Source: Candidatus Aminicenantota bacterium (GTDB lineage: Bacteria > Acidobacteriota > Aminicenantia > Aminicenantales > Aminicenantaceae). From it: a stretch of 45,019 nucleotides of DNA. Positions 5,463 through 37,634 of the stretch are shown here, one piece after another (the first letter of the stretch is position 1; each line of letters begins with the position of its first letter). The notes below the pieces were generated by a model. The model was not told the DNA's origin. It was given only the letters and a program-made list of their open reading frames with translations, and made no database searches. The position numbers were made by a program, and so were the translations under genes. The stretch covers positions 1 to 45,019 of the forward strand of contig JADHWO010000015.1 of assembly GCA_016783445.1 (NCBI GenBank), read 5' to 3'.

Positions 5463-5744
5463 TACTCCTTAAAAAAATTACTTTTTAAAACAATCCTGCA
5501 GCATTCTTTCTTTATTACATTCTCTCTCCTTATAAAATTATTTTGCATAGTATTATCTTTATTGAAGTCTACTTAGGATTTTTCCCCTTTTCACTAAACT
5601 TTAAATCTAATTGACACTTTAAATACTTTTATTTCTCCTCATCTTTGTAAATAATTATACTGTATTTCTTAAATAATGCAAGAATAAAAAAGGACAACAC
5701 AATTGAGTGATTAGTGGAAGCATCTTTTTTTCCGTGCTGGATTA

Positions 5745-5935
5745 ATAAGGGTATTTGGGGATGGATGAAGCGACTTTGAAGATTTAGCCTTCCTGAATCG
5801 CTTTTTGAGGGAATCCGGCAAAGCCGGACACCGAGTATGTTTGAGTGCAGCGAGTTACGCAGGTGCCGAAAAGAGCGATAAAGGAATGGCGTTAAAAATC
5901 TGAACGGAAGCTCAGACATTCCCAAATACCCTTAT
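5745..5935. repeat. Dispersed ~190-nt repeat, copy 1, bounded by inverted arms
   Basis: Arms ataagggtatttggg (5745-5759) and cccaaatacccttat (5921-5935) are perfect complements; interior nearly identical to 8863-9046. Confidence 0.85.
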
Positions 5936-6078
5936 AATGTGATTGATCCGTCTTTCATCACGGTAAAAAAGTAACTTATATGATTACTGGAGTCCTTGAC
6001 AAATTGTCTTTTATAATTAAATATCAAAATAACAACAATAAGATATATATCCTTCAAAAAACTTGAGGAGGTTTGTTG

Positions 6079-7035
6079 ATGAAAAACTGTCTGGTTATTG
6101 GAGCTGGACCTATAGGCAGTATTCTTGGTGCCCATCTTTTAAAAGAAGGAATAGATGTCACTCTTGTAGATATCTTAAAAGAACGTCTACGCAGCATGGA
6201 AAAGAAAGGACTTACGGTTAAGGATCCAAGAAACCAGATTGTTGGAGATTTTATCGAATTTCCTAAAAAATTCCTCTTTTCTCCAAAAGAAATAAAAGAT
6301 AAGCCCGACGTAGTATTTATTTGTATCAAGACATATTATCTTACGGATGTTATCACTGAAGTTTCACAAGCAATCTCAACTCCTCCCAAGGTTGTGGTTT
6401 TCCAGAATGGACTTGATAATGAAGAGCATGCAGCAAAAGTTTTCGGAAAAGAAAACGTTCTGAGGTGCATAATCAATTATGCAGGAGCGATGACTTCGGA
6501 CACAGAAGTGGAAATAGCCTTCTTTAACCGGCCTAATTACATCGGAGTTCTGGAAAGTGGAAATATTCCCCTGGCAAAAAAAATTGCAGAAATTCTCACT
6601 GGGGCAGGTCTTGAAACAGAATATACAGATGAGATAAAAAAATACGAATGGGAAAAAGCCATTTTAAACGCATGTCTGGCATCAGTTTCAACAGTAACAG
6701 GACTCACAATGAAAGAAGTTATGGATTCTACTCCCCTAAGAAAGATTGTAGAAAAACTTCTTCTTGAAGGAATAAAAGTTGCGGAAGGAACCGGGATCAA
6801 ATTTCCAGATAATTTTTATGACCTGGGCCTATCCTATTTAAGTAAAGGTGGTTACCATAAACCCTCCATGCTGGTTGACATAGAAAAAGGAGGAAAGACA
6901 GAAATTGACTTTCTCAATGGAAAAATTGTTGAATACGGAGAAAAGCTAAAGATTCCAGTCCCCTTCAACTGGACAGTCACCGCAATCATAAAAGGTCTTG
7001 AACAAAAAAAGAACCGCAAAAATAAAAAACTCTAA
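6079..7035 (+). CDS. panE: 2-dehydropantoate 2-reductase family protein (ketopantoate reductase)
   Basis: MKNCLVIGAGPIGSILGAHLLKEG Rossmann motif, VFQNGLDNEE, central KYEWEKAILNACLA, NGKIVEYGEKLKIPVPFN; AGGAGG upstream of ATG at 6079. Confidence 0.82.
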   Translation: MKNCLVIGAGPIGSILGAHLLKEGIDVTLVDILKERLRSMEKKGLTVKDPRNQIVGDFIEFPKKFLFSPKEIKDKPDVVFICIKTYYLTDVITEVSQAISTPPKVVVFQNGLDNEEHAAKVFGKENVLRCIINYAGAMTSDTEVEIAFFNRPNYIGVLESGNIPLAKKIAEILTGAGLETEYTDEIKKYEWEKAILNACLASVSTVTGLTMKEVMDSTPLRKIVEKLLLEGIKVAEGTGIKFPDNFYDLGLSYLSKGGYHKPSMLVDIEKGGKTEIDFLNGKIVEYGEKLKIPVPFNWTVTAIIKGLEQKKNRKNKKL

Positions 7036-7119
7036 AAAAGAACTTCCCTCTCTTCCTAATTTAAATAACCTGGATGATTTAAGAAGCTGGGCACGAAGAG
7101 TAGTTAAAAGTGTCAGAAG

Positions 7120-7281
7120 CTAAAAAAAATACTTTGCGCTCTGATTGGAAAAAAGTTGTTCTTGAAGGGCCTTTTGTAAATTAGGAGTACCCGCAATGTA
7201 AATAATATTCTTTTCCTCATCAAGAAGCTGGATGGCTCCTTCTGATTCAGGAACCTGGCTTACAGCTTCAGGAACAAACTC
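7120..7281 (-). pseudogene. Fragment resembling a GIY-YIG/UvrC-N-like small domain, no start codon
   Basis: In-frame EFVPEAVSQVPESEGAIQLLDEEKNIIYIAGTPNLQKALQEQLFSNQSAKYFF*, immediately preceded by an in-frame TAA and with no ATG. Confidence 0.4.
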
Positions 7282-7399
7282 TTAATATAGGTTAATAACG
7301 TAGAAAACTTTTGATTATTTGGAAAGAGGGATCTGAGAGCTGCTACATTCAAGTCCTGTATTTAACAACTCTTATTACATCTGAAATAATTTGGCTTTA

Positions 7400-8113
7400 T
7401 TAAAAGACAAAAGAAACGCCAATATGTCCGGTTAAAAGATCAGTTCTCGACAGGTTAGAATCATACAAGACCCGGTCATTTTCCAGACGAATCGCACCTT
7501 CTATCAGGTACTCAGCTCTCCCGCCCTTCAGGTAGCAAATTCCTATGTCAATATAAACCGCAAGGGGACCTTTTTTCCTACTTCCTTTATTTCTATACGC
7601 TTGGATCATCAAGCCGCCGCCTGCTCCATAACTAAAGGCAAAATCATTTAAAATATTGGAGCTGAGTACAGAATCATAGCCAATTTCGTTCTGGCTGCTG
7701 ACGCCTGTGTTGGTCGTTAAATAATTAAATCCTATCAATCCATCAAGATAAGGACGAAGTTTCCCTTCTGGAGGCTGGACACGAAATAAAAAATGACACA
7801 TAAAGATGCTGTTTATGGTTGTAACATCAACCAAAACATCCGGGACTGTTGTACTAAAAGGCTCTTCCCGCGTTTCACTTCCATAAACCAGATAACCTAA
7901 TGAAACTCCCACTAAAAAGGGAGACCTGGGAAAATTAAATGCGAAATGCCCTGTACCACTAATTCCAATTTTATCAACAATATCTTTGAATTCATTTTGC
8001 GGAAAGCCAAGGCTAAAATTAGCGCTGACTTGAAACGGTGCTCGCGCATAAACCAACGATGTGAAAAATAAAACTATAAAACATATGGCTCCAAATGATT
8101 TGATCTTATCCAT
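7400..8113 (-). CDS. Exported protein, outer-membrane beta-barrel-like
   Basis: ATG at 8113 gives MDKIKSFGAICFIVLFFTSLVYARAPFQVSANFSLGFP...; signal peptide, alternating hydrophobic strands, terminal HIGVSFVF aromatic end. Confidence 0.5.
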   Translation of the reverse strand: MDKIKSFGAICFIVLFFTSLVYARAPFQVSANFSLGFPQNEFKDIVDKIGISGTGHFAFNFPRSPFLVGVSLGYLVYGSETREEPFSTTVPDVLVDVTTINSIFMCHFLFRVQPPEGKLRPYLDGLIGFNYLTTNTGVSSQNEIGYDSVLSSNILNDFAFSYGAGGGLMIQAYRNKGSRKKGPLAVYIDIGICYLKGGRAEYLIEGAIRLENDRVLYDSNLSRTDLLTGHIGVSFVF

Positions 8114-8380
8114 GTTATTCTTCCTCCTTTTTAAATGATTTATCCCTATCTGGTTCCTGTTAACGATAAATTTTACCATGGCGGTCTTTGTGGGAAAACA
8201 AAAGAGCAATCTTTATGCCAATTCATATCAGGCATAAACAAAGATTTCTCTCTATTTTCTGTCCTCTATAATGGTCAGGTGTAACAAAAAAAGTAGCAAA
8301 AAAAGAGAAATATAGAGAAAGGATTGGCGAATGGAAATAAAAAAAAATGAGGGAAAAATATGGAAACAGGCTATTTTATC

Positions 8381-8803
8381 TCAGGATTTAGATATATTGC
8401 TTAGGGCTTTATCTAATAATGCTATAGAGCTTTTACAATCTTCTGGATAGACCGCCATCCCAATGGACACAACTCCCCAGTTATGTTTCCGGGCAAGCTT
8501 ATTAATCCTCTGTTTAACAGAATCAGCCCCTTCTCTACCTGTTTGAGGAAGTATAATAAAATACCTCCTCCAAAAAGGACCCAGCATCTTGTCATAACCG
8601 CGCAAAAATTTTTCCATTAAATGAAACGAAATGACCTTGCCCGGCATTACTCTGCTTAAACCCCGGGGAACTGAGTGGCTGACCTCTACTGCAAGGACAC
8701 TAAAAAAATAATCAAACCTTTCTGAACGGCTTATTTCCTCCTTGATTATACTAATCTCTATTCCATACTTCTTTTTTTTAATTTTGTTCTCTAATTTGAA
8801 CAT
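8381..8803 (-). CDS. Degenerate GGDEF-like domain protein
   Basis: 140 aa; RRYFIILPQTGREGADSVKQRINKLARKHNWGVVSIGMAVYPEDCKSSIALLDKAL resembles the second half of a GGDEF domain, but the GG[DE]EF signature is absent. Confidence 0.5.
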   Translation of the reverse strand: MFKLENKIKKKKYGIEISIIKEEISRSERFDYFFSVLAVEVSHSVPRGLSRVMPGKVISFHLMEKFLRGYDKMLGPFWRRYFIILPQTGREGADSVKQRINKLARKHNWGVVSIGMAVYPEDCKSSIALLDKALSNISKS

Positions 8804-8862
8804 TAAAGCTGCCTTTATTTTATTCCTCTAATAATAGCGGCTCTTCTCCCTTTTGTATAGGT

Positions 8863-9046
8863 AAAATACACGGAAATGGATGAAGCGACCTTGAGGATTT
8901 AGCCTTTCTGAATCGCTATTTGAGGGAATCCGGCAAAGCCGGACACCGAGTATGTTTGAGCGCAGCGAGTTACGCAGGTGCCGAAAAGAGCGGTGAAGGA
9001 ATGGCGTTAAAAATCTGAAGGGAGCAGAGCCATTTCTGTGTATTTT
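8863..9046. repeat. Dispersed ~190-nt repeat, copy 2, bounded by inverted arms of different sequence
   Basis: Arms aaaatacacggaaatgg (8863-8879) and ccatttctgtgtatttt (9030-9046) complement except one G-T pair; interior matches 5760-5920. Confidence 0.85.
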
Positions 9047-9090
9047 TCTCATATTCCAATCCACGCAAATGGGATAGGAGCTATAATAAC

Positions 9091-34177: not shown

Positions 34178-34294
34178 TTATTAAACCTCCTTTATGGGAA
34201 AATTTAATAGCATAGGCAATATTTGCTGTCAAAAGTCCAAAATGGCGAAAAGTTTATATTATTAGCCGCCATGTCGGCTTGATAGATTAAAAGT

Positions 34295-34353
34295 AAGTAT
34301 TCTGGGATGGCGTGAAAAATCTGAACGGGAGCGAGACCATTCCCGAATATCTT
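34295..34353. repeat. Internally deleted third copy of the dispersed repeat
   Basis: aagtattctgggatggcgtgaaaaatctgaacgggagcgagaccattcccgaatatctt: conserved right segment plus roughly complementary arms; interior missing. Confidence 0.65.
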
Positions 34354-34388
34354 CTGATTATTACCCACACAAAATGGAAGAGAATCAT

Positions 34389-37459: not shown

Positions 37460-37634
37460 GAGATTGCCGCGTCGCCTCGCTCCTCGCAACGACGTCTACG
37501 GCAACCTCGACCCGTGAATAATCCAGGTTAAATAATCAAAATATTAAACTTAAAGCGGGTTTGATGAATCAAACCCCTATGAACTCTTGCAGGAAAAATG
37601 GGGCCTGTCCCCATTTTTTTTGAATCAAGTCCCC
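37460..37634. repeat. Cluster of REP-like and palindromic repeats
   Basis: gagattgccgcgtcgcctcgctcctcgcaacgac (37460-37493); gggtttgatgaatcaaaccc (37557-37576); aaaaatggggcctgtccccattttt (37594-37618); half palindrome tgaatcaagtcccct from about 37621. Confidence 0.7.

Follow-up and report, generated by a model that had tools for sequence, protein, structure and literature searches.

MITE-like elements of Candidatus Aminicenantes with changing ends and a putative conserved RNA module

Two complete elements in the window

The window analyzed here, i.e., the whole stretch of 45,019 nucleotides from contig JADHWO010000015.1, belongs to the 2.9-Mb draft genome of a Candidatus Aminicenantota bacterium (GCA_016783445.1), of which it represents one contig. 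It contains two complete MITE-like elements and a third, internally deleted copy (Table 1). An earlier note on this DNA had described the first two as a dispersed repeat of equal length, with nearly identical interiors between arms that are unrelated from one copy to the other and complementary within each. The near-identity of the interiors was confirmed (95% over 148 ungapped nt, 5761-5908 versus 8876-9023), as was the relationship of the arms, while the lengths proved to be close rather than equal (191 versus 184 nt). The arms, however, are not the termini of the repeat. Alignment of the flanks of the genome copies placed the true ends 24-44 nt beyond the coordinates first given for both copies, so that the elements extend to 5716-5979 and 8839-9082, with direct duplications outside. 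On folding, the basal stem closed in both copies, with z = -9.4 (5745 copy) and z = -5.7 (8863 copy) against dinucleotide shuffles. The core of the first element is inverted relative to the asymmetric ends, an arrangement found in one other class-A copy and unlike that of most members of the class. The second element combines ends related to class B (ISL3-type) with a core of class-A type. In the third copy, the core has been deleted between its two GGGATGG repeats and the left terminal repeat has been lost.

Table 1. Coordinates of the elements in the window and of their parts.
Feature	Position	Strand	Remarks
Left target-site duplication GTGATTAGT, class-A element	5707..5715	.	7/9 match right copy
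Complete class-A element, 264 bp	5716..5979	+	Core on + strand
Left terminal inverted repeat GGAAGCATCTTTTTTTCCGTGCTG, class-A element	5716..5739	+	
5' inner arm, class-A element (left arm of the earlier note)	5745..5761	+	
Conserved structured core, class-A element	5759..5921	+	Covariance model R1
3' inner arm, class-A element (right arm of the earlier note)	5919..5935	+	
Right terminal inverted repeat, class-A element	5956..5979	-	
Right target-site duplication ATGATTACT, class-A element	5980..5988	.	
Left target-site duplication ATAATAGC, class-C element	8831..8838	.	7/8 match
Complete class-C element, 244 bp, ends GGCTCTTCTCCCTTTTGTATAGG / CCACGCAAATGGGATAGGAGCT	8839..9082	+	
5' inner arm, class-C element (left arm of the earlier note)	8863..8879	+	
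Conserved structured core, class-C element	8874..9035	+	R1 match, L009 1499-1660
3' inner arm, class-C element (right arm of the earlier note)	9030..9046	+	
Right target-site duplication ATAATAAC, class-C element	9083..9090	.	
Class-B remnant, third window copy	about 34278..34386	+	Internally deleted
Right terminal repeat of class-B remnant	34364..34386		

End classes and target-site duplications

The genome yielded 52 BLAST matches corresponding to about 40 distinct copies, long variants being split in two, and these counts rest on sequence searches and fetched stretches. Identity among the copies was largely 81-97%. Their aligned flanks sorted them into end classes (subfamilies), within which similarity ran beyond the arms first described, up to terminal inverted repeats. 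Specifically, class A, to which the 5745 copy belongs, has the ends G[GT]AAGCATCTTTTTTYCCGTGATG, a length of 264 bp and 9-bp direct duplications, and class B has the ends GGTTCTCTTCCATTTTGTGTGGG, a length of 268 bp and 8-bp duplications. The ends of class C (the 8863 copy) resemble those of class B, and its 8-bp duplication matches at 7/8 positions. Class E, with the ends TTTGTCCCAAAGTGACGGGAT, was found in the complete genome CP070825. Inverted terminal copies bound 15 class-A and 20 class-B elements. The two flanks of the same element differed at 0.7/8 positions in class B (versus 4.1 for mismatched flanks) and at 1.3/9 positions in class A (versus 6.4), and perfect flank matches were seen only at lengths 8 and 9. 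By these comparisons, the class-A and class-B duplications are not due to chance. The elements have several of the features by which MITEs are recognized, namely short length (<500-600 bp), many copies, terminal inverted repeats and duplications of fixed length.

The arms of the 5745 copy recur, with 91-97% identity, in seven other class-A copies at unrelated places and are therefore element-borne. What had looked like unrelated arms is the inner portion of the inverted repeats proper to each subfamily. Their complementarity within copies turned out to be general, since among 32 divergent copies 83% of the arm positions pair within the same copy versus 63% between different copies. All 16 arm pairs occur as at least two Watson-Crick types across lineages, which bears out the suggestion that the basal stem covaries. 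The arms have no strand bias, however: in 37 dereplicated copies, departures from pairing were almost equally G-T (36) and A-C (31), and thus the arms look like an inverted repeat of double-stranded DNA.

A structured core with a strand bias

On the other hand, the interior of about 150 nt is best read as a separate module with a predicted branched fold and selection on one strand. Among 26 cores with identities below 88%, pair-keeping changes on both sides were seen at 17 of the 35 predicted pairs, and 96% of the core cells were paired versus 38-54% when partners were slid by 1-3 columns. The covariation score of the core was reached by none of 500 shuffles, and each of five covariation measures by at most one in 500. 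Departures from pairing in the core were 47 G-T and 17 A-C, and their contrast with the arms (Fisher p 0.03) weakens under stricter dereplication (p 0.08, 23 copies); the strand tests draw on related sequences and these p-values are optimistic. A wider set reaching other families, aligned to the + strand model, gave 55 G-T and 21 A-C, and the bias was reversed for a structure optimised on the minus strand (23 G-T, 39 A-C). The + strand fold was stabler than the - strand fold in 50 of 54 copies. We consider the interior to be the RNA-like part because it has a strand bias that the arms do not. Comparing G-T with A-C within pairs is a clean test, requiring nothing but sequence, by which RNA stems and DNA inverted repeats can be told apart within a single element. 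The loops of the core are nearly invariant (GAGTATGTNTGA, GAGTTACGCAG, and GATTTAGCC opposite GGCGTNAAAAATC).

The window had no match at gathering score among 4227 Rfam families, and for the 5745 copy relaxed thresholds gave nothing even at E values of up to 5. Ten related loci produced sub-gathering, chance-level matches only, and no Rfam identity was assigned from them. A protein-coding origin was set aside, as single-base indels break the frame between copies. The interior appears to behave like an undescribed RNA family, and its covariation suffices to delimit a candidate for a new RNA family.

Distribution of the core

Conservation of the core extends over at least 12 genera, all of one order, with ends that vary. 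A covariance model search detected it in 14 of 396 Acidobacteriota genomes, all from the order of the window; this order accounts for 28 of the 396 genomes, and under the strict filters applied absences are weak evidence. BLAST recovered the repeat in 39 of 60 related genomes, and a pattern search of named genomes found it almost only in Candidatus Aminicenantes. Copies in other families combine the same core motifs with another apical extension, and the inverted ends of some are different again. No core match was found in plasmids, phages or viral contigs, and a search of one literature library retrieved no paper that pairs Aminicenantes with MITE or inverted-repeat terms. Two families of the order have the core in the jag-mnmE intergenic region (L080 1562-1741, L233 1501-1679). 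We did not accept this region as an ancestral locus since the core lies on opposite strands in the two families. Single good core matches were also seen in other phyla, in a Syntrophobacteria MAG (L071) and a Zixibacteria MAG (L061), reflecting either transfer or misbinning.

Transposase partners and exchange of cores between ends

The genome has a sole match to an ISL3 transposase (C25:394-1095; PF01610, E 3.9e-72), and a class-B terminal repeat lies 39 bp behind it. Because of this adjacency, class B can be regarded as an ISL3 MITE, probably mobilised in trans by the ISL3 enzyme. Class C would likewise be ISL3-derived, given the resemblance of its ends and its 8-bp duplication. The 9-bp duplications and other ends of class A, in turn, are the reason why the 5745 copy is not filed as ISL3-derived. 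A terminal-repeat search of four genomes revealed no autonomous partner of class A, and none was found for class E in the complete genome CP070825. The top families of genes neighbouring the copies include no recurrent transposase, nuclease or reverse transcriptase. The interior shows no visible descent from the ISL3 transposase gene.

In a tree of 85 cores, the end classes interleave. For the 36 copies with a strict class at both ends, the tree needs six changes of class, against a minimum of two. A single clade per end class was rejected by the AU test for B (p 8e-17) and A (p 1e-7), and a single class-E clade was not (p 0.12). A single origin per end class is thus incompatible with the trees, and cores have been exchanged between transposon ends. 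The 8863 core falls within the class-A cores of this genome despite its ISL3-like ends, and its grouping with the class-B cores of this genome was rejected (AU test, p 0.03). The pairing of near-identical interiors with unrelated arms in the window thus arises because a core of class-A type sits in ISL3-like ends. Gene conversion within the shared core would be the simplest route of exchange.

Nested modules and palindromic targets

In long variants of about 400-540 bp, a second palindromic module takes the place of the apical part of the core. It has a conserved stretch of its own (GCGGGCATGGTTC...GAGAGCGAAGCC...CTCGCTGGGG), and the interior of coreless 200-bp class-A elements is related to it. 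In the genome of the window, such long variants, i.e., hairpins within hairpins, were observed at L031-L046, L107, L113 and L128. The tip of the second module may carry a GGGGACAGTCCCC-type hairpin, and at L036, L107 and L113 the tip is a GGGGACAGTCCC hairpin. The 200-bp class-A MITEs (L147, L151, L153, L154, L157 and L159 in the same genome) have the same 9-bp duplications and a different, GC-rich palindromic interior (GTCAGGCAA..GGAAGCCATCCGGAGGCGAGCGGGCATGGTTCCTC).

Some targets are themselves palindromic. Six or seven of 20 class-B insertions lie at the exact centre of the palindromic repeat GGGTTTGATNNATCAAACCC, with the central octamer duplicated, and this repeat has 190 sites in the genome versus 5 for a reversed control. 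Most class-A and class-B targets are non-palindromic. Since the non-palindromic class-B targets are also AT-rich octamers, an octamer preference together with intergenic location may suffice for the targeting of GGGTTTGATNNATCAAACCC. The GGGTTTGATNNATCAAACCC palindrome is also present within the window (37557-37576), and L021 is flanked by GATGAATC and, on the opposite side, by the reverse complement GATTCATC.

Proposed explanation and alternatives

We propose, with a probability of roughly 0.74, that these repeats are MITEs with a conserved RNA module, i.e., non-autonomous DNA transposons with interchangeable ends and a core selected on one strand. The outermost ~20-25 bp would be terminal inverted repeats that a trans-supplied transposase recognises, presumably one of ISL3 type in class B and, as the ends are similar, in class C, and insertion would duplicate 8 or 9 bp of the target. 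The inner arms would continue the terminal inverted repeats and be inherited within each subfamily. The core would most likely be an RNA made from the + strand, and homologous recombination or gene conversion in the part that the elements share would probably have moved it from one transposon lineage to another with other ends. Covariation and strand bias can be read from the sequences themselves, as can the ends, the duplications, the subfamilies and the exchange between end classes; mobilisation by the ISL3 enzyme, gene conversion as the route and transcription of the core are inferences. Counting against the proposal, no promoter or intrinsic terminator signal in the element exceeds chance, no autonomous element with class-A ends was found, and a function as single-stranded DNA would produce a strand bias as well. 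Such an RNA might, as a weakly held suggestion, benefit the element by acting in cis on transcripts that read through it, or as a small RNA in trans. It is also conceivable, and we put this forward tentatively, that the interior rather than the transposon ends is what evolves as a unit: a structured RNA module, selfish or co-opted, which has persisted through the whole order by repeated changes of vehicle (MITEs with at least three end classes and different duplication lengths) and itself hosts nested hairpin modules in its loop.

Several alternatives were weighed against the MITE with a conserved RNA module. According to the earlier note, the element might insert into the loop of pre-existing hairpins, with the arms as part of the target site. 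This would agree with arms that differ between the window copies and pair within each, and with the class-B copies centred in GGGTTTGATNNATCAAACCC. However, the 5745 arms travel with the element, the direct 8- and 9-bp duplications are found farther out than the arms and flank terminal repeats common to many copies, and most targets are not palindromes; the window copies lend the proposal no support and we regard it as very improbable. Ordinary MITEs, in which a functionless core only seems conserved through recency and gene conversion, would account for the high identity within the genome and for the swapping of cores between subfamilies. Under drift the pairing would nevertheless decay, whereas compensatory double changes occur in divergent cores of many genera, the loops are near-invariant, the strand bias is maintained and the core survives full replacement of the ends, all of which makes this explanation unlikely.

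The excess of G-T over A-C reveals one folding strand, which could be RNA or single-stranded DNA alike, and no promoter stands out. A core acting as single-stranded DNA, e.g., as a transposase-binding hairpin or replication signal, would be consistent with both observations. We give it a low probability, as double-strand DDE transposition, which the terminal repeats and the 8/9-bp duplications indicate, needs no folded strand, and the core is found in both orientations relative to class-A ends. The genomic context raises yet another reading, in which the core serves solely as a transcription terminator or insulator and renders insertions harmless: scorable copies are intergenic, and the upstream gene is on the opposite strand in 28 of 41 (simple ORF-based gene calls). 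Nonetheless, no U-tract terminator was found in the element and the loop sequences are conserved beyond the needs of a terminator, so that we find this reading improbable as well.

Comparison with known systems

MITEs are normally defined by conserved ends flanking a dispensable middle. The elements described here are of this known kind and represent an unusual variant of it, in which the interior is conserved and the ends change. Of the systems described so far, QMITE2 of Coxiella burnetii comes closest. This MITE of comparable size is present in tens of copies of 150-190 bp with terminal inverted repeats and long direct repeats of 7-11 nt, it has a stable folded transcript, one copy gives rise to the sRNA CbsR16, and QMITE2 is itself targeted by another transposon (PMC5896051; PMC10969869). 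Unlike QMITE2, the Aminicenantes core is common to several end classes, has a strand bias and bears compensatory changes between genera. If it is transcribed, transposons would carry a functional RNA through a whole order of uncultured bacteria, and dozens of natural copies per genome are available for testing its role.

Insertion sequences and MITEs of the ISL3 family share with class B the 8-bp duplications and ends that adjoin an ISL3 transposase, but here the same interior is also found with other ends and 9-bp duplications. HEARO / IscB and TnpB guide RNAs and group II intron fragments are likewise structured RNAs (here a predicted one) on mobile elements; unlike them, the core has no Rfam match and no recurrent nuclease or reverse transcriptase neighbour. 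REP/BIME sequences consist of a 20-40-nt palindrome without terminal repeats or duplications. The elements resemble them in being intergenic, palindromic and dispersed in tens of copies, yet they are longer (244-268 bp, up to ~540 bp) and possess terminal inverted repeats and 8- or 9-bp duplications. We did not assign them to REP/BIME, as size, terminal repeats and duplications fit a MITE.

Atypical copies

A 100-bp class-E element in CP070825 (L277, about 3212888-3212987) has had its core deleted between direct repeats, and only the ends and the basal arm remain. At L024, L130 and L151, a recurrent AAATGTTGAGACGCGACCCCTTTT adjoins the element ends and is probably another repeat family. Copies in the genomes G003, G016, G021, G027 and G031 (e.g., L091, L211 and L212) have the arms ATGAAATTC..GAATTTCAT, lack clear terminal repeats and have the 3' flank TTTTTATGAATAGTTCAGG in common, possibly pointing to another mode of mobility.
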